From IMG/VR virus record IMGVR_UViG_3300020411_004158, positions 1 through 21,123 of that record: 21,123 bases of DNA; one strand, given 5' to 3'. Origin of the DNA: a virus. Below the pieces are notes generated by a model that made no database searches, was not told where the DNA came from, and worked only from the letters and a program-made list of their open reading frames with translations. Below, piece after piece: positions 828 through 17,741 of the stretch; positions within the stretch are counted from its first letter, which is position 1; the number at the start of each line of letters is the position of its first letter. Made by a program: the position numbers and the translations under genes.

Positions 828-3800
828 AACTTACTCTGATAATGTAAGCAATAGCGAAGTATGGTGGTAAGTTTGCACCAGTTGCATTATTACCCACCTG
901 TGATGTTGTACCACTGATTGAAACAGTTTCAGTGCTTGTGGTTCCTGACCCACCGAAGTTTGTCCTATCTTCTGGACCACCACTCTGATTCTGTTCAGCT
1001 CCTGACCCACTTGGATGTACTGCTACAGTGTGAGTATGGGAGTGATTAGCACTACCACTAAATGTGTGATCGTGCTGAACTAAAATTGCATCTTTACTAC
1101 CACCTGTGCTTCCAGCAGCGTAACTTGCACTTCGACCAATCACAAATCTATCTTCTAAGTTTGGTACTACAATACCATTTACAGTACCTGCATTAGCAGC
1201 ATTACATAATTTGAAGTGTGATGGTACGTTACCATCAGATCCAGACCACATTATAATACCACCGAGAGGTATTGCACCTGGTCCTGTGAAAGCTCCACCA
1301 GTAACTGTCCCCGTAACTGAAGCATCACCACCTACTGATAGGTCATCAGCGATTGCTGCGTCATCTGTCGAAACTAGATGTTCACCTGTAACTGTGCTTG
1401 ATGCAGTTACATTGTCAGCACTAGCGTTTGTTGTAACAACTAAAGTGTTTGCAGTAAGAGTTGCACCTGAGAATGTGAGTGAAGAACTATCTTCCAACTC
1501 TCCACCTGAACCAGTGACGACTACCCGCCCAGAATTCAGGTCTGTAACCTTCGCACTGCTTGCCTCTAGGGTACAAGTGGTAACACCCGATATGTTTATG
1601 TTACCAGTAATATCAACATTACCAGTTATATCAACTACCTTATCATCAAGAGCAGCGGCCTGACCGATTGCAAGTTTATCAAATGAGTAATGTTCTGAAT
1701 TTGCTTCGTAAGATATTGGTCCGAAACGTTGCCATGGATTAGTTGCATCTGTTGTTCTAACCCATCCAAGGTAACCACCCTTATCGTAAGTTGTGCCAAG
1801 TAAGACATTATCAGTACTACTTGTAGGTGTATTCTGACTTATACCAAGATAAACAGATTGTCCTATATCACCCGATCTATCACCTTTCAATCGTATGTCT
1901 ATGACTTCAGTGTCTTTCTTACTTGTAAGACTGCTACTTACAACTAAACTATTGAAGGTCGCAGTTTGTGGTAATTTGTTAGATGTTCCTGTCTGGTCAA
2001 TCTGTGCTATAGTTGATTTCTCTTCACCTGTGATAGCGTCAATTTTCTTACGTCCGATAAAGAATTCACCCTTATCATTCAATCCTGTATAAACAACAGC
2101 ACCACCATTGACATTGATAGACTGAGCAAAGATCTGATCATCTTCACTTAGAACTCTATCCTGTGTTTGTGGTAATGAAGTTGAATAGTTACCTGGACCA
2201 AAACCAAGATACTCAAATGTATGTCCTGATGCACGTATGATTGAGTTTCTTCTGTTCTCAACTGGTATGACTCTTATTTTTCTAACAGCATTGAATCTTA
2301 CGTGTGCTGTTGCTAAAGTGCCAAATAAACCTCTTATAACCTCTGTGCAGTTTTTATTTGCAATTCTAAGTATCTCATCCTCAACCATGATGTAATCACC
2401 ACGCCTGAACATTGCTTTCTTCTGCAAACCAATTGTGGTTGTGGTTGCTGTCATAGCAGAGTCAATCACAGTTGTTTGACCACCATAGATGGGAACATTC
2501 TGATTGAATCCTCTCATTGATATACCTGCATCATGAGCATAGGCACTAGCACCACTGAATGTTGGTGATGTAGTTGCTCCAATATTGACAGATAAAGATG
2601 AACCGTATCCTATTCTATCTTCAACAAGGTGAGTTCCATTATATTCATTGTTAGCTCCAGCGATAACAATCATATCACCACGTCTTAGACCAATGTCTTG
2701 GTATAATGTGACTGTTGCTATACCACTACTAGCATCATGTATTATGTTTGTGACTTGTGTAGACACACCAACATGATATGCAAATCCACCTGGTGTAGAC
2801 CAGTCACCTATAGATTGACCTGTAAATGTAAATCTACCTTGTTCGCTGACTGCAGTAATCTTGTTTATACCATTGAATGCGGTAGATCCAATACCAACTG
2901 TTTGTACGATATCCCCTATCTTATTATCAATAGCACTTACAGTAACCTGACAATCAGTACCTGGTGCAATAAAGGGTACACCTTTTACTGTTAGAATATC
3001 ATTTACTGCATAACCACTACCTGCATCAACTAACTCAAGAGATGTAATCGTTGCAGCAGCAGATACAGTTACATCTGCTGTGGCTCCCTTACCCGAACCA
3101 CCAAGAAGATTTACACTATAATAAAACTCAGCACTACCACTGTTAGTACCATAGTTTGATCCACCTGTAATTCCAGTTAGACCCTCAACACCATTGAAGT
3201 TATGCTGTCTTCCAAGATCAACTGATAAGTCTTTTACACTACCAGAACCTGCAACAGTTGCACCTGTAACACCAATACCAATACCAGTTCTTTCAATGAA
3301 GGAAAATATCGCTTCTTTTGTTATACTCTTAGAGGTATCATTAGTTTTTACCTGTCCAATCTTATCTCTAAGTGCAAAACTAACTGCAGCATTTGGATCA
3401 TCATCTACTGTATCTTCACTAACGATTGGTTTTAGATCATTTACATTCTGAGCAAACTTGATTGATGTATCAGTGTACGGAGATACATTTGCAGAATTCA
3501 AATAACCTAGTATTGTTATATCATAGATACCATCTTGTGCAGACTTCTGGAATCTTTGTACCTTTTCTTGTGCAAATATCTGATAATCCTCTCCAAAATC
3601 TTTTCTTGTAAAGAATGGACTGAATGTTCTACCAGAACCAACAATTGTTCTATCTACCTGAGTATAGGGTATTGTTGTAATCTTAGTGATTGCACCAGGA
3701 TCTGTATTGAGTCCGACTCTAAATGTTTTTGGATCGTCAACTGCTGATACTACATAATCCCTATTGAATCCACTATCATCAACTCCATTGACATTATTAG

Positions 3801-11292: not shown

Positions 11293-12524
11293 GCTAGCTC
11301 CTGATAGGAATCTCTAACTAATTCTAGTCCAGTAAAGTCCTTATCGCCACCAAATTCATGACATAATTTGGAAATAAGATAAAGACCAGATTGAGGACCA
11401 GATAGTCTCGTACTATTTATTTCTGGTAATTTGAGGAAAATTACCTGACCTGCTCTCAATTTCAGGTTTATTGGTACGGTGACCTTCATCCTTTGAGAGA
11501 ATAGTGAACTATATCTTGTGGTCGCTTGTGCCTGATAATAATATTGATCCGATGTAGCGGTCAGATCCCCCTTGACCGATAAGCAACCTCTATCTACAGT
11601 TTGCAGTATAATACGAGAATAATTTTCATCCAATTTAGGAGTGACTGTCTCATCTGCTGATATTTCCATCTCCTCACTTGCACTGTCTCTATAACTATAT
11701 TCAACAAACGCTGGTTTTCTTGTTATAATATCATAATACCAGTTTGCAGTCTTATAATGACCTGCATTTAGTTGTTGCAATATATTATGACTTGACTCGA
11801 CAACAGGTTGTGAGACCACAGTAAACAAATTTTTCAAAGCATCAAAATTTGTATCCTTATCGATTTTATATTCATATTTGACTATACTTCCCTCATCTTC
11901 CTTTGCTTTTTTGAATAATCCATCAATACTTTTGAAATGATATCCGTCTTGTGTTTGGTAAAATAAGAATCCAGCAGAACCTTTTGTATCACTTGACGTG
12001 GGAGCATCAATAGATTTTTTTGCCAACCATGTGCATGCAAGAAGGGGTCTTCTATAACCACCAACAAATTCGTAATTATTATTTGTATCATCTATGTCAA
12101 ACATATCTACTCCCAACTTATCTTTCATAATCTTTGTCACACTATCAGATATTTTTCCTGTATATTTCTCAAAAACTCTTGTAGTATGATTTTCAAATGC
12201 ACTATTAGTCTCCATGACTAGAGCATATGTTTCTCTCTTCGCCTCTGGATTATATCCTATGATATTACTTATCATCAAATCTTCAAGTGAAAGGGTTGCT
12301 CCATTTGATTCTATTTCAAAAGAAACTTTATTCCCACTTCTCACAGGAAGTTTATTGAATCTACCAAATACATCTTGTATTCCTATCGTAAGATGAATAC
12401 TTGTATCTGTTATATCTTCATAATACTTTATACCACTTGTCTGCTGCGTAAAATCAAAATTCTTTTTACCTTCAGGACTTGATATGTCGAATTTTTTTAG
12501 AGTGGAACCTATTTGTACACTCAT
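11289..12524 (-). CDS. 27: Baseplate hub protein, gp27-like (411 aa)
   Basis: The length is close to T4 gp27 (391 residues). The fold pattern suits the hub family shared with phage late-control D and VgrG proteins: an early strand-rich domain (SIHLTIGIQDVFG, then VSFEIES), a helical linker (KISDSVTKIMKDKLGVDMFDI), a long middle, and a final domain ending MKVTVPINLKLRAGQVIFL, then SGLYLISKLCHEF. That last pattern, a transport or strand domain rebuilt around a Gly-containing loop, is common in hub proteins. In T4, gp27 trimers join the tail tube to gp5. Here the gene is separated from gp5 only by the CP12-like gene and overlaps both neighbours by 4 bases. I did not recognise specific gp27 residues, so the name rests on fold pattern, length and position. 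Confidence 0.65.
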   Translation of the reverse strand: MSVQIGSTLKKFDISSPEGKKNFDFTQQTSGIKYYEDITDTSIHLTIGIQDVFGRFNKLPVRSGNKVSFEIESNGATLSLEDLMISNIIGYNPEAKRETYALVMETNSAFENHTTRVFEKYTGKISDSVTKIMKDKLGVDMFDIDDTNNNYEFVGGYRRPLLACTWLAKKSIDAPTSSDTKGSAGFLFYQTQDGYHFKSIDGLFKKAKEDEGSIVKYEYKIDKDTNFDALKNLFTVVSQPVVESSHNILQQLNAGHYKTANWYYDIITRKPAFVEYSYRDSASEEMEISADETVTPKLDENYSRIILQTVDRGCLSVKGDLTATSDQYYYQAQATTRYSSLFSQRMKVTVPINLKLRAGQVIFLKLPEINSTRLSGPQSGLYLISKLCHEFGGDKDFTGLELVRDSYQELA

Positions 12525-14401
12525 ACCGTTACATGTCCTATCATTTCACTGTATTTAGTTGCAACATCGTATGGATTTGCCTCCTTGAATATTGGAACCA
12601 CTACTGAACTACCAGAACTAAATGGTTGAGTTTGTTGATTTTGTTTAGGTGGTGCGATTATTGTGATTACATTCGTGCTTGATGGTTTTTTACCTCTTGA
12701 TCTCGTATATTGATTCTCCTCTGGAATAATTCTCTCCTTCCCATGTAATATTGCAACATATCCAGATTCTGGACCTGTCATGACACCACCTTCAGAATTG
12801 AATATTTCAGAACCTAATGGTGTATTCTTCAATTGTTTGATTACTTTTTGTATGTTGATGACATCTTTAGCACCTGAAGGACCTATCTCAACCTGCCTCA
12901 AGAATTTTATAAGTTCATCAACATTTCTAGCATCAATAAAATCTGAGTCTATCATATCATCAATCGAGTTCTTGAATGCTCTGAATATTTCTATCTCTCT
13001 TTTTGTGTAATTGCCTGGCACAAACTCTCCCTGCTTCAAAACTTTTCTTACCACGGATACGAAAGCGTCTGACTCTTGTCCAGATTTGAATATTTTACTC
13101 TCAGCAGTTATTCTATTTTCTAAATTTTTCTTGTTAAGAATTTTTCGTACAAAATCTTTATTCAGTCTATTTTTATTGAACTTTCCTTTGAGAAATCTTG
13201 GTATAACTCTTTCTACTACATTTTCTTTTTTTAATGATTCAATTAATGCTTGTGCTCTTACTTTGATACCCTTTGGACTCAATGCAGGTTTGAAACTCTT
13301 ACCAAAATTCAATCTGAAAGCATTAGTCATCCTTGTACTTAGAGAATTGGTAATTTTATCTGCATTTCTACTGAATGCCACAAAACCAGAAGTCTGTGAG
13401 AATTTCTTTAGAGACATTGCCTTTTTCAAGGACATGATTCTATTTGCTAGACTTGGGAATCTTGTCGCAACATATGGGACTGACACAGTTTGATCAACAC
13501 CAGTAGGTGTAAATGCAGACGCTATGGCAAGAATATCTAATGCAATTAGTAATGTTTTCCCAATCGGAAACCTATTAGGTGTAACTCTCGGTGCCACTAT
13601 TGCTTCAATTTTTTTGTTGATATTCTGTGCAATAGCTTGACTTTCACCTAAAAGAGGTGCTTTTTTCTCAAGTTTATCTAATACTCCATCTAATTGATCT
13701 AAATTTTTAGAGAATAAAGTATCTCGTTGTCTAGTTGTTTCCTCTTCTTGTATTCTTCTGAAATCTGAACCTGCACGTAATATATTTTGCCCATATAATC
13801 TATCAAATAAATTACCACCAAGTAAACCACCTAATGCTCCACCCAATAATCCACCTGCAGCAGTTCCCACACCAGGTAATATTGCAGTTCCAAGTAAAGC
13901 ACCTAATTTAGCACCACCTGCAAAACCACCAAGACCTGCCAGTGCTCCACCACCTGCTTGTAGATTACTTTGACCCGCTTGTTTTCTAGAAAAGAAATCT
14001 AAACCTGTGCCTATTACTGCAGCAGGTCCTAATCTAAATTTTGATAAACCCTTCGCAATCCCACTTTTAGGTAGTTTTGGTGGTATGCCTCGACCACCTC
14101 CACCACCAGGTCGTCCTCCTCCACCACCACGAAATCTTCTTATAATCCGACCTGTTCCACCAATTCCAAGTGCAGTGAGTAGGACATTAGTAAGATTACC
14201 CTTTTTATTCCTATCATTGATCAAACCTGTAAGAGAATTGAAAGTTTCCTCTCTTAGTTTTTGTATCTTCTCTTCTTTTACTAAATTTCTCTGTCTTGAA
14301 ATATTATCCATGATATTATTTCTAGACACAGTGGCACTCAAAATTGATGACTGAGTGCCTGCAACGGTTGATATTCTTACTAACTTTCTAGGGTTTATCA
14401 T
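12521..14401 (-). CDS. Tape-measure-like tail protein, second of two (626 aa)
   Basis: The N-terminus is basic and helical (residues 28-56). Then come a Gly-Arg tract (RRFRGGGGGRPGGGGGRG, about 88-104) and long Gly-Ala-Leu hydrophobic segments (about 148-196) and another at 280-300. Residues 310-510 are helical and Lys-rich. The C-terminus has GGVMTGPESGYVAILHGKERIIPEE (about 538-562), a pattern (GG, GP-x-SGY, LHG-x-E, IP) that I know from the ends of tail tape-measure proteins. Tape measures thread the tail tube, set tail length and are ejected with the DNA, which suits the hydrophobic helices. T4 uses gp29 (590 residues) for this. Its start overlaps the stop of the 508-residue gene by 4 bases. 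It could instead be the gp28 or gp29 equivalent in the hub. Confidence 0.6.
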   Translation of the reverse strand: MINPRKLVRISTVAGTQSSILSATVSRNNIMDNISRQRNLVKEEKIQKLREETFNSLTGLINDRNKKGNLTNVLLTALGIGGTGRIIRRFRGGGGGRPGGGGGRGIPPKLPKSGIAKGLSKFRLGPAAVIGTGLDFFSRKQAGQSNLQAGGGALAGLGGFAGGAKLGALLGTAILPGVGTAAGGLLGGALGGLLGGNLFDRLYGQNILRAGSDFRRIQEEETTRQRDTLFSKNLDQLDGVLDKLEKKAPLLGESQAIAQNINKKIEAIVAPRVTPNRFPIGKTLLIALDILAIASAFTPTGVDQTVSVPYVATRFPSLANRIMSLKKAMSLKKFSQTSGFVAFSRNADKITNSLSTRMTNAFRLNFGKSFKPALSPKGIKVRAQALIESLKKENVVERVIPRFLKGKFNKNRLNKDFVRKILNKKNLENRITAESKIFKSGQESDAFVSVVRKVLKQGEFVPGNYTKREIEIFRAFKNSIDDMIDSDFIDARNVDELIKFLRQVEIGPSGAKDVINIQKVIKQLKNTPLGSEIFNSEGGVMTGPESGYVAILHGKERIIPEENQYTRSRGKKPSSTNVITIIAPPKQNQQTQPFSSGSSVVVPIFKEANPYDVATKYSEMIGHVTV

Positions 14402-15924
14402 TTACTGATATTGAGTAAGAGATTGTTGATAAATTTATCGATACTTCCTTTGAACTCAGGATCTACAAATACAGAGTCTGTACTTGCACCTACATCAGCA
14501 ATAGCACCGTCATCTGGATTCAATATACCACCATCTTCAAAGAATGGTAAAAATATATTTCTTATCTCAGGAGGAGCATCATCTAACGCTTTTTTATCTA
14601 TATTACTGAAATTACCCAAAGCATTATTCAAGAATGAAGCTGCTATTTCCTCTTGTTTTTGTTGTTTTGTGAGTGGTATAAATTCAGTCTGAATCAAACC
14701 CAGAAAGTTTTTCATGAGTTTATTCATTTTCTCACCTTTTTTATTTCCTACTACACTTGTAAGGTCTACACTTCCATCATCACCTATTTTTGTGCTCTGT
14801 GATAATGCTTCTAAGTTATCAGCGATTCTATCAGCAATACCATCAAGTTGAATAGCAGTTTCTAACAATTGATCTTCTGCAATCTTCACTTCTGAAATAT
14901 TACCCTCATTACCAGATCCCGCTTCCAACAAATTTTGATCTATATCATCAAGTTCTGCAGCACCCGCTTTTGGGGTGAAAATATTCATAATACCACCAAA
15001 TATATTTCTCAATAAAGATGTTCTACGACCAAAATCTTCTGCTTGCTCATCCTTATTTTTGAAAATATCAACTATCTGCTGAAAAGGATTTGTGAATTGT
15101 TGTATTAATTCAGCGAATCCAAATAATTGTTCACCTATAGGTCTATCCCTCATAGGATTTGGTGGTTCTTCTTCTGGAAGTTCTAAATCAATATCACCAA
15201 TAGTTTGATTGATATTTTGTGGAGTTCTCCTTCTACCACCAAAACTGTCTATCAATCTCTCGAACCTATCAAGTTGTCTACCAAATCTAGCAGTGTCATC
15301 AGCACTTATCACAGTTCGTCTTATTCCTCTTACTGCTTGCTCTCTTCTAAACTCTGAAGTGGGAGCGTTATTCTGATTATTACGACCTGCACCCATCAAT
15401 AATGGTGCCAATGCTAAAAGTGGTAGTGCTAGTAAACCTGCCCTACCTTTTGGCATGGGCATTGCACGACCACCAGTTCCACCACCACCACCAAGCAATC
15501 CTTTGGTAGCGAGTCCACCAACCACAACTTGTGATGTAATATTGATTATCTCTGGTAAAAATGCTGTTACTGCTAATCCTGTATCTTGTAATCCAGCACC
15601 TACGTTGCCTTGTTGAAACTGATTGAGTGCAGAGGCACCTGCTGCCACTCCTATTATCTTCCTTAGATTAGAAGTTGCTGACCTTAGAGTTGTTAATGAC
15701 TCCTCTTCTTTCTTTAGTAACTTATCTCTCTTCCCTTCAAAATTCTGTTTATCCCTAGAATCTTTTGATAATATATTTCTAATGTTTAATATATTTGCAC
15801 CAATTCTCTCAAAACCACCTAATAAATTTCCTGTTCCTTTTGCTTGTTCTGGCAATGGCAACCTAGTCGCAGGTGCCATGACCATGCGACTTCTTGGTTG
15901 AAATATACTACCAGGAGTTTGCAT
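14398..15924 (-). CDS. Tape-measure-like tail protein, first of two (508 aa)
   Basis: Its architecture resembles the 626-residue neighbour. There is a Pro and basic N-terminus, then a charged helix (SKDSRDKQNFEGKRDKLLKK, about 53-72). Hydrophobic Gly-Ala stretches follow (about 90-150), including LATKGLLGGGGGTGGRAMP, then a strong hydrophobic segment GLLALPLLALAPLLMGAG (about 163-180). A helical region comes next, and the C-terminal FFEDGGILNPDDGAIADVGAS resembles the GG-containing ends of tape measures. The ATG overlaps the stop of the 63-residue gene by 17 bases. Standing directly after the gp26/chaperone pair is the usual place of the tape-measure gene in many tailed phages. I infer tape measure or hub function; which of the two proteins measures length is not decidable from sequence. 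Confidence 0.55.
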   Translation of the reverse strand: MQTPGSIFQPRSRMVMAPATRLPLPEQAKGTGNLLGGFERIGANILNIRNILSKDSRDKQNFEGKRDKLLKKEEESLTTLRSATSNLRKIIGVAAGASALNQFQQGNVGAGLQDTGLAVTAFLPEIINITSQVVVGGLATKGLLGGGGGTGGRAMPMPKGRAGLLALPLLALAPLLMGAGRNNQNNAPTSEFRREQAVRGIRRTVISADDTARFGRQLDRFERLIDSFGGRRRTPQNINQTIGDIDLELPEEEPPNPMRDRPIGEQLFGFAELIQQFTNPFQQIVDIFKNKDEQAEDFGRRTSLLRNIFGGIMNIFTPKAGAAELDDIDQNLLEAGSGNEGNISEVKIAEDQLLETAIQLDGIADRIADNLEALSQSTKIGDDGSVDLTSVVGNKKGEKMNKLMKNFLGLIQTEFIPLTKQQKQEEIAASFLNNALGNFSNIDKKALDDAPPEIRNIFLPFFEDGGILNPDDGAIADVGASTDSVFVDPEFKGSIDKFINNLLLNISK

Positions 15925-16099
15925 TCTTCGCTTGAGCTGCCTCTAAGTTTTTCTTCTCTATGTAATTAGACAGATAGGTTACATAGATTTCACGCTCAAA
16001 AGGAATCATATCTTCTATTTCAGTCAACCCCCAACCATGATGCTGCATGAGTGAGAAGTTTGACTCATAATAAGAATCAAGACTCGTATGATATAACAT
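15908..16099 (-). CDS. gp51-position baseplate hub assembly/tail chaperone protein (63 aa)
   Basis: This short protein contains SLMQHHGWGLTEIEDMIPFEREIY, then VTYLSNYIEKKNLEAAQ. The pattern of a small helix, a GW-x-L-x-E-I turn and a helix with a conserved MIPFERE core suits the second half of tail-assembly chaperones such as P2 gpE' and lambda gpT. It occupies the place of T4 gene 51 (order 26-51-27), whose product helps assemble the hub without being in the virion, but T4 gp51 is 249 residues. Its ATG overlaps the gp26 stop as TAATG. The frame is also open upstream in the -1 frame through a slippery run at the end of gp26, so it may be made both alone and as a C-terminal extension of gp26. 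Assignment to gp51 by position is tentative. Confidence 0.65.
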   Translation of the reverse strand: MLYHTSLDSYYESNFSLMQHHGWGLTEIEDMIPFEREIYVTYLSNYIEKKNLEAAQAKNANSW

Positions 16100-16827
16100 T
16101 ATGCGAAAAAATTTGATAAACCCTCAATTAGAACTTCAGACTCTACATCTGTATTTGGGTTTACCACCGTAGACTTGTATTGTAGTCTAGGCATTGTTAC
16201 AAAGAATTCTTCAATTTTAGCAAATTGTTGAGAGTTCAACGATTCAATAAAACCAAGTAACTCTTTTTTTGTACAGTCACTTGCCGACCATGCATCTTCT
16301 GAAGTGAAGACTTGATCTATGCAATCTGCCACAGCATCGAACGCTTTATCAATTCTCTCTTGATTTGTTTCATCAGGAGGTGTAATAAAGTTATTCTCTA
16401 AAAATTGTTTCATAGATGGATATTTCATTTTTATTGAAATATCTCCACCTAAATCAATTGTGTCAGTGTGACCATCAGGAACATGTAATTTGATATCACT
16501 CAATCCAATTGTCAACGGAACTTGAGTTTTACCGTCATCTTGACATGTTATAAGAAGGTCTACTGTCTCTCCAACAGATTTTCCTCTCACATTCAGAAAA
16601 AGGTATTCAAGATCAAATGATGGTAAATCATCTATTTTGACTCTTGACATCAAACAACCTTTCAATACATTCTTGATTGTTGCTATGATATCTTTTTCTG
16701 TACCATTTTCCATCGCAATCAAAAGTGCTTTCTCCTCTTTTACGAGGAATGGGCGATATTTGATTGTTTTTGATGATGATATAAGGTTCAGTTCAAACGT
16801 AGGTGCTACGACCTTTGGTAAAGGCAT
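16099..16827 (-). CDS. 26: Baseplate hub subunit gp26 (242 aa)
   Basis: The N-terminus MPLPKVVAPTFELNL, followed by KTIKYRPFLVKEEKALLIAME, is the signature of the T4 baseplate hub family containing gp26. The LFLNVRGKSVGE segment and the Asp-rich strand region near residues 105-130 (IGLSDIKLHVPDGHTDTIDL) also fit that family. Length is close to T4 gp26 (208 residues). It heads the long hub operon, with a CTAAATA box 20 bases upstream. In T4, gp26 is needed for hub assembly. The last codons are AAT TTT TTC GCA TAA, which contain overlapping -1 slippery heptamers, so a 306-residue fusion with the next gene is possible. Confidence 0.85.
   Translation of the reverse strand: MPLPKVVAPTFELNLISSSKTIKYRPFLVKEEKALLIAMENGTEKDIIATIKNVLKGCLMSRVKIDDLPSFDLEYLFLNVRGKSVGETVDLLITCQDDGKTQVPLTIGLSDIKLHVPDGHTDTIDLGGDISIKMKYPSMKQFLENNFITPPDETNQERIDKAFDAVADCIDQVFTSEDAWSASDCTKKELLGFIESLNSQQFAKIEEFFVTMPRLQYKSTVVNPNTDVESEVLIEGLSNFFA
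16105..16114 (-). promoter_or_regulatory. Candidate programmed -1 frameshift site, AAATTTTTTC
   Basis: On the minus strand the end of gp26 reads TCA AAT TTT TTC GCA TAATG. It contains two overlapping X XXY YYZ heptamers in the correct phase: A AAT TTT (16114-16108) and T TTT TTC (16111-16105). After a -1 slip the frame continues CGC ATA ATG with no stop and enters the 63-residue gene, giving a fusion of 241 + 2 + 63 = 306 residues. An inverted repeat, ATGAGT with ACTCAT separated by 10 bases, lies about 35-60 bases downstream, at 16047-16068. It is a weak, distant stimulator candidate. Confidence 0.55.
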
Positions 16828-16853: not shown

Positions 16854-17741
16854 CTAGGTTTCAGTGGGGATCTCACCAGTAGTTGACTGATCTCTTTTGA
16901 ATTCTTCCAAAGTCGTAGGAACTATCGCTGTAGTTACTGGTATATTAGCATCCCTTACGTTTCCTACACTGTCAGAAATAGCAAGTGCACCACCTACTCT
17001 TGAGGTTCTATCCACAAAGAAATTATCAAATTTGAATACTATTGATGTTTTTATAAGTTGTGCTTGACCATATGCCAATGGTGCTGCAACTATATTGATG
17101 GGAAAAGCATTTTGAATGTAGTAAGTTATACTACTAGGTGCTTGTATCAATGGAAAACTCTTTTGCTCCTCCAATCTTTGAGATTTTGTAAAAACCTCAT
17201 TACTAAAAGCAGTTATCTCTATCTCGCACTTATATTCATCGGGATATTTCAAACGTCTATATGAATTTTTATCATTTCTTCTTTGTGGTGTATGATCACC
17301 AAATGTACCATTTGCGATTCTTGTGGGTGTTATGAACTCCATCCATGCATTGAATACATCATTAGTATAATAATCTTTCTGAGAGAAAAATGTAAGAGTT
17401 AGATCTGTCATTTTTCTCATAGTACCAACCTGAGTCATCATACCTTGTCTTAGACCAGGTACTTCTTGTGCAGAAATAGCTGAACCTGGTAATACTGCTT
17501 CTGAGCAGAATAATCTAAGATAGTCACCTATATCAGCATCATTTTGTTGATCATAAAAACCATGCTGGTTTATAAAAGTAAGCAAGTTTGGTGCACTTCT
17601 AAAATTAATATATACGTCATATGAATTATTATACGCAGGTACTATATTTCCAAACTTTGAGTCAGTACGGTATAGCATCTCTGTTGGGAGATGTTGTTTC
17701 TGTCTTTGTAAGACATCTGCTAATCGACTACTACCTAGCAT
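16854..17741 (-). CDS. 54: Baseplate tail-tube initiator gp54 (295 aa)
   Basis: The layout follows T4 gp54 (320 residues). An early segment ends with an exposed strand and gives PGSAISAQEVPG, close to the place of KMPENRLSYETDW. Then comes MRKMTDLTLTFFSQKDYYTNDVFNAWMEFI, paired with the T4 block around ISFRMDSEACNYRAMQDWV. Finally SSITYYIQNAFPINIVAAPLAYG and TSIVFKFDNFFVD parallel the T4 block FTGCVPISVSAPELSYDG with FDVTFAYRV. gp54 has the tail-tube fold and, with gp48, starts tube polymerisation on the hub. The gene is divergent from gp4 across only 27 bases, and no Shine-Dalgarno sequence is visible before its ATG. The C-terminal 40 residues are of no recognised type. Confidence 0.75.
   Translation of the reverse strand: MLGSSRLADVLQRQKQHLPTEMLYRTDSKFGNIVPAYNNSYDVYINFRSAPNLLTFINQHGFYDQQNDADIGDYLRLFCSEAVLPGSAISAQEVPGLRQGMMTQVGTMRKMTDLTLTFFSQKDYYTNDVFNAWMEFITPTRIANGTFGDHTPQRRNDKNSYRRLKYPDEYKCEIEITAFSNEVFTKSQRLEEQKSFPLIQAPSSITYYIQNAFPINIVAAPLAYGQAQLIKTSIVFKFDNFFVDRTSRVGGALAISDSVGNVRDANIPVTTAIVPTTLEEFKRDQSTTGEIPTET

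Follow-up and report, generated by a model that had tools for sequence, protein, structure and literature searches.

Results

Organization of the gp26/gp51 junction

The stretch of DNA analyzed here (called the window for simplicity) comprises 21,123 bases, i.e. positions 1 to 21,123 of the IMG/VR virus record IMGVR_UViG_3300020411_004158. The record belongs to a marine T4-like virus. The genes and signals considered are located on the minus strand (TAC, tail assembly chaperone):

16854..17741, minus strand: tail tube-like protein directly upstream of gp26, in the position of the major tail protein; phrog_45 (E = 4.2e-21), PF23849 (E = 1.3e-13)
16099..16827, minus strand: gp26, 242 aa; PF12322 (T4_baseplate) and phrog_150; predicted TAC-N and counterpart of lambda gpG
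16121..16125, minus strand: Shine-Dalgarno-like GAGGG, 9 nt 5' of the heptamer; probable 5' stimulator, marked by codon enrichment
16108..16114, minus strand: second heptamer, A AAT TTT; in phase, not conserved
16105..16111, minus strand: slippery heptamer T TTT TTC, with zero-frame codons TTT TTC; conserved in relatives
15908..16105, minus strand: -1 frame continuation (CGC ATA ATG TTA); C-terminal gp51 part of a predicted 306-aa fusion, the predicted TAC-NC; phrog_634 and phrog_150
15908..16099, minus strand: gp51 as a 63-aa open reading frame whose ATG overlaps the gp26 stop (TAATG); usually annotated as a separate gene
16056..16085, minus strand: the window's own predicted hairpin, starting about 20 nt after TTC and distinct from the +6 hairpin of relatives; role uncertain
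14398..15924, minus strand: 508-aa protein that follows gp51; no family match
12521..14401, minus strand: 626-aa tape-measure-like protein; phrog_794 (E = 6.5e-12, the match being partly Gly-rich)

The 3' end of gp26 reads GAG GGT TTA TCA AAT TTT TTC GCA TAA TG on the minus strand, which confirms the reading in the initial annotation of AAT TTT TTC GCA TAATG with the terminal TAATG overlapping the ATG of the 63-aa frame. Both heptamers named there, A AAT TTT and T TTT TTC, are indeed in phase (16114-16108 and 16111-16105, respectively); their distance to the stop, given as 7 bases, has to be corrected to 6 nt for A AAT TTT and to 3 nt (GCA) for T TTT TTC. A third in-phase heptamer at the junction, G GGT TTA, is not conserved. 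As claimed, the -1 frame runs without a stop through CGC ATA ATG into the 63-residue gene, being open for 7 codons upstream of the gp26 stop and for 64 codons onward into the gp51 frame. A -1 slip on T TTT TTC, with CGC ATA ATG TTA as the next bases, would yield SNFF|RIMLYHTSLD and thus a predicted fusion protein of 306 aa consisting of gp26 residues 1-241, R, I and the 63 residues of gp51. After such a slip both codons of the heptamer would be UUU, with which tRNA-Phe (GAA) is able to re-pair.

Any TAATG overlap places the following gene in the -1 frame, and the short open bridge alone therefore carries little weight; bridge plus overlap were rejected as stand-alone evidence, every such overlap providing both. 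Across the window's genes we counted 52 in-phase heptamers of the type X XXY YYZ, and only three of these, all at the gp26/gp51 junction, are followed by a -1 frame longer than 26 codons. This, like the invariance of T TTT TTC in close relatives and its recurrence in distant ones, goes beyond chance expectation. Further downstream, the last 17 bases of the gp51 frame (15908-15924) are shared with the beginning of the 508-aa gene, which suggests that translational coupling continues along the tail operon.

Protein families and gene order

The assignment of gp26 to PF12322 (E = 3.9e-66, 223.3 bits at a cut-off of 24.5) and phrog_150 (E = 4.1e-72) is clear. The 63-aa frame matches positions 59-119 of the phrog_634 profile (baseplate hub assembly catalyst; E = 2.6e-24) and weakly the C-terminal end of phrog_150 (profile positions 240-276). 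Since phrog_634 matches both the 63-aa frame and residues 147-246 of T4 gp51, the frame can be regarded, by profile similarity, as a homolog of the C-terminal part of T4 gp51. In several genomes the phrog_150 profile is itself divided between the frames, its positions up to ~234 matching the zero frame and those from ~230 onward the -1 frame.

The genes are arranged in the order tail tube, gp26/gp51, 508-aa gene and tape-measure-like gene, the latter being the second gene after the pair. Tail assembly chaperones are usually encoded at just this location, after the tail tube gene and before the tape measure gene. Of the two tape-measure-like genes that had been proposed to follow directly, the 626-aa gene retains this assignment, while profile searches with the 508-aa gene returned no match to a tape measure or any other family.

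An attempt to establish the TAC identity by fold was unsuccessful. A profile search against the PDB found nothing that identified gp26 as a TAC, and the two Foldseek matches of highest probability to the AlphaFold model of gp26 (pLDDT 83.5), namely 3fgx (probability 0.47, E = 2.9) and the HK97 tail assembly chaperone 2ob9 (probability 0.20, E = 5.9), were not significant.

The slippery site is fixed in phase at synonymous positions

Relatives of the window's gp26 (80 IMG/VR sequences together with S-PM2 and DSL-LC03) were picked by protein similarity and not by motif, and were clustered at 85% identity. Every gp26 in this set ends with NNT TTT TTC followed by one codon and the stop, and NNT TTT TTC is in phase in 74 of the 74 resulting clusters, which are at most 85% identical to each other. 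In S-PM2 the predicted gp26-gp51 fusion reads ...LQSFFRISMFYNN... across the junction. Under free synonymous choice with gp26's own codon use (626 TTT and 193 TTC codons for Phe), the chance of this outcome is about 10^-70 (log10 P = -69.6), a number that is indicative only, the sequences being related. The neighboring Gly and Leu codons are free to vary, and the remaining Phe-Phe pairs of gp26 take the NNT TTT TTC form in 1 of 74. The second Phe codon of the site stays TTC although TTT is commoner elsewhere by 626 to 193.

The initial annotation had named both overlapping heptamers as slippery. A AAT TTT was rejected as the main site: the codon before TTT TTC varies among AAT, AGT, TCT, GCT, GAT and GGT, with AAT present in 15 of the 74 clusters and AGT or TCT being commoner. 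By this pattern of conservation the working heptamer is T TTT TTC, invariant in the close relatives, and not the A AAT TTT overlapping it.

Many relatives lack a start codon for gp51

In the window the second frame possesses an ATG; in dozens of relatives a gp51 start codon is absent, and their second frame would not need a start of its own. No ATG, GTG or TTG able to start gp51 in the -1 frame was present at 12 of 97 junctions (no ATG at 15 of 97), and most of the IMG/VR set found with the pf16 query likewise lacks a gp51 start codon. Frameshifting is the only evident route to gp51 in these relatives because a start codon is missing. The window's SD-like GAGGG is located about 21 nt upstream of the gp51 ATG, which is too far for normal initiation. 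Free gp51 may nevertheless also be produced in the window by re-initiation at the ATG overlapping the stop. In DSL-LC03 (L082, 3996-4165), ACG-2014d (L100, after 2501) and LPCS28 (L087, after 3187), the GenBank records do not annotate gp51, for which the -1 frame offers no usable start codon. Melnitz-3 likewise lacks a start for gp51.

Putative stimulatory signals flanking the heptamer

Codon -9 relative to the gp26 stop is GAG in 65 of 74 clusters, as compared to 508 of 1714 (30%) elsewhere in gp26 (Fisher p = 2.8e-24), and where this codon is GAA the next one is GGG in 7 of 9 cases versus 4.6% elsewhere (Fisher p = 4e-8). As an outcome of this codon choice, GAGGG or GAAGGG is placed about 9 nt before the heptamer, where the SD-like element is a probable 5' stimulator of the predicted shift. 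Downstream, a folding-energy scan revealed a single dip starting 6 nt after TTC (mean z of -2.1, near zero away from there). About half of the relatives have an 11-bp hairpin at this distance, e.g. AGTATGGCTCA...TGAGTCATACT, in which one pair varies as T-A, G-C and A-T. Over all 80 sequences, 70% of the cells were paired as compared to 63% with shuffled 3' arms, i.e. covariation support is modest. In the window this +6 hairpin was not found (5 of the 11 positions of the conserved hairpin pair). The idea of a universal 3' hairpin was rejected, since neither the window nor about half of its relatives form it; the +6 hairpin is lineage-specific.

In the -1 frameshift of E. coli dnaX, slippage on A AAA AAG is stimulated by an SD-like sequence, whose spacing of about 10 nt upstream favors the -1 direction, and by a downstream hairpin. 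The window's GAGGG and the hairpin of its relatives resemble these stimulators, whereas dnaX is a cellular gene with another slip site.

The site is retained in distant T4-like lineages

The same site with an open -1 frame into gp51 was found in phages of Pseudomonas (pf16, Astolliot), Aeromonas (Aeh1), Cronobacter (LPCS28), Vibrio (nt-1, 6E35.1a), Agrobacterium (OLIVR5), Rhizobium (RHph_Y68, AF3), Sinorhizobium (phiN3), Synechococcus (BUCT-ZZ01) and Methylophilales (Melnitz-3), and in IMG/VR junctions retrieved with pf16, RHph_Y68 and nt-1 as queries. Across these lineages the heptamer ends with C or T, or with G in the Rhizobium phages, and the run of six T in the window extends to seven or eight in pf16 and Melnitz-3. 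In Ackermannviridae the -1 frame is homologous, but the site reads ATT TTC or GTT TTT. When the junctions were aligned as the initial annotation had proposed, all relatives examined with the order 26-51 outside Ackermannviridae had an in-phase slippery heptamer, usually T TTT TTC and more rarely one ending in T or G. No stop interrupted the -1 frame at the junction in any relative examined. The proposed -1 frameshift extending gp26 is thus supported, having withstood the sequence-based tests that could have refuted it.

Two deviating arrangements were observed. In several loci (L124, L139, L151, L154 and several of L160-L167) the zero-frame stop is not reached until eight codons after the slip site, which is still present, and gp26 thereby gains an additional C-terminal tail that overlaps with the -1 frame. 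Kuttervirus and Ackermannviridae-like loci (L186-L202, L089, L091) have a homologous -1 frame, mostly without an early start, and ATT TTC or CTT TTC at the slip site, a poorer heptamer.

T4 encodes the long form in a single frame

In T4, PF12322 alone makes up gp26; in gp51 a PF12322 domain is followed by the phrog_634 tail in the same frame. An alignment of T4 gp51 with the predicted fusions runs unbroken across the junction (NFFRIMLYH aligned with DVFKLLVNP). T4 thus has two copies of PF12322, encoded by divergently transcribed genes, while each of 19 genomes sampled from other T4-like lineages has one; a search of the window's record, a 21-kb fragment, with gp26 as query hit a single site. 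In 1,334 phage records there are proteins of the T4 gp51 type that cover at least 80% of T4 gp51. The T4 pair (Tevenvirinae) therefore belongs to the same families as the window's pair and differs from it in comprising two divergent genes, the long form being encoded in a single frame such that no shift is needed. With PF12322 and the gp51 tail in one frame in T4 and one PF12322 copy in the others, the long protein is predicted to arise by duplication and fusion in T4 and by frameshifting elsewhere. The frameshift appears to have been kept across most T4-like lineages and to have been replaced in T4 by a second, ready-fused gene. As a separate observation, T4 gp26 (L083, 7803-8429, minus strand) weakly matches phrog_1140 (baseplate hub distal subunit, E = 9e-4), probably the gp28 family; gp28 may be another paralog.

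This comparison bears on a previous description of cyanophage gp51 as 'truncated', with the first ~200 residues absent, and of gp51 as 'missing' in Aeh1 (Sullivan et al., 2010, PMC3037559). The 'short' cyanophage gp51 would be accounted for because the absent part is gp26 itself, joined to it by the predicted shift, and in Aeh1 (L086, NC_005260) an unannotated gp51 continues gp26 in the -1 frame just after position 3220.

Discussion

The slippery site and its in-phase synonymous conservation, the SD-like element, the open -1 frame, the relatives without a start codon, the colinearity with T4 gp51 and the gene order together argue that gp26/gp51 is very probably a tail assembly chaperone pair of the lambda G/GT type (TAC-N/TAC-NC), expressed as one translational unit by programmed -1 frameshifting. 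From these sequence features we infer that slippage occurs, how efficient it is, that it is ribosomal and that the products act as chaperones. The majority of ribosomes would finish at the gp26 stop to yield the 242-aa TAC-N, while a minority would slip back by one base on T TTT TTC, bypass the stop and add the gp51 tail, resulting in the 306-aa TAC-NC. Pairing of GAGGG, about 9 nt upstream, with the 16S rRNA would aid the slip. As in lambda gpG/gpGT, TAC-N would be expected to coat the tape measure and TAC-NC to bring in the tail tube subunits.

If the junction merely served ordinary coupling, ribosomes would terminate at TAA and start anew at the ATG overlapping it to produce a separate 63-aa gp51, and the T-run would reflect nothing but two Phe codons. 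The TAATG overlap, found in the window and in relatives (L001-L008), is what such coupling predicts, and the annotations of S-PM2 and P-SSM4 list gp51 as a gene in its own right. We nevertheless regard this explanation as very unlikely, as the -1 frame of many relatives is devoid of a start codon, the heptamer is fixed in phase at synonymous positions, the spacing of the SD-like element suits a shift at the heptamer and not initiation at the ATG, and T4 gp51 is a fused protein. Even less credence is given to a fusion generated by transcriptional slippage. The run of six T at the site, and the longer runs in pf16 and Melnitz-3, could invite it; six T are, however, short for polymerase slippage, retention of the less common TTC as the second Phe codon shortens the run, and the SD-like element and the downstream hairpin are signals of translation.

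A different question is whether the shift takes place in a pair that serves as a scaffold of the baseplate hub rather than as a lambda-type chaperone of tape measure and tube. T4 gp26 and gp51 have been described as hub assembly chaperones, gp51 being absent from the particle (PMC3004832). The position of the pair between the tail tube and the tape-measure-like gene speaks against this role, as does the TAC identification by Vladimirov et al. (2022) in the paraphrase given in PMC10885494. The two roles overlap in that the tape measure gp29 is part of the T4 hub, and a hub scaffold in place of a tail chaperone is improbable, if less so than coupling or transcriptional slippage.

The comparison with lambda G/GT and P2 E/E' drawn in the initial annotation fits. 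As in lambda, a -1 shift shortly before the first frame ends would result in a short and a long form, encoded between the tail tube and tape measure genes; significant similarity of the lambda proteins to the window's pair in sequence or fold was not found, and the lambda slip site differs from T TTT TTC. P2, likewise a contractile-tail phage, uses a -1 shift at a T-rich heptamer, the E/E' slip site being a T-run. It belongs to a different phage family, a relation in protein sequence was not found, and we know of none between the E/E' proteins and gp26/gp51. The TAC shift of Vandenendeviridae/Andersonviridae (phage Adele) likewise combines a conserved poly-T stretch at the TAC-N end with an open -1 frame that needs no start, and differs in the phage families and in the motif, GTTTTT (PMC12846349).

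One earlier account regards G/GT shifting of the lambda type as conserved widely, 'except T4' (PMC5009743). As far as the papers citing their work convey it (PMC10885494, PMC12846349), Vladimirov, Gautam and Davidson (2022, Virology 566:9-15) identified TAC genes in T4-like phages. According to these papers, some T4-like phages dispense with a shift and encode the short and the long, fused form in separate genes (PMC10885494), and TAC-N genes of this phage group are known to contain poly-T shift signals (PMC12846349). The initial annotation, which knew of no described example for the T4 26-51 pair, had thus overlooked a precedent. Because TAC genes and poly-T signals of T4-like phages, as relayed in these citations, were described earlier, the kind of system is known, and the window's phage adds a member well supported by its sequence. 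The stimulatory signals and the breadth of the switch from frameshift to fusion may be undescribed.

The wide spread of the frameshift state suggests, from its distribution and not from a tree, that it is ancestral. We see about even chances that a -1 shift at NNT TTT TTC with GAGGG, and in many lineages a hairpin, was the ancestral T4-like route to the long tail chaperone, that Aeh1, nt-1 and LPCS28 (Straboviridae) retain it and that Tevenvirinae swapped it for the duplicated, fused gp51. The small gp51 of hundreds of phage records, annotated as a gene of its own or not at all, is probably a C-terminal extension of gp26. Within a single virus group, the T4-like phages would then clearly illustrate how a duplicated, fused gene takes the place of frameshifting, making it testable whether selection keeps the ratio of the short to the long form.
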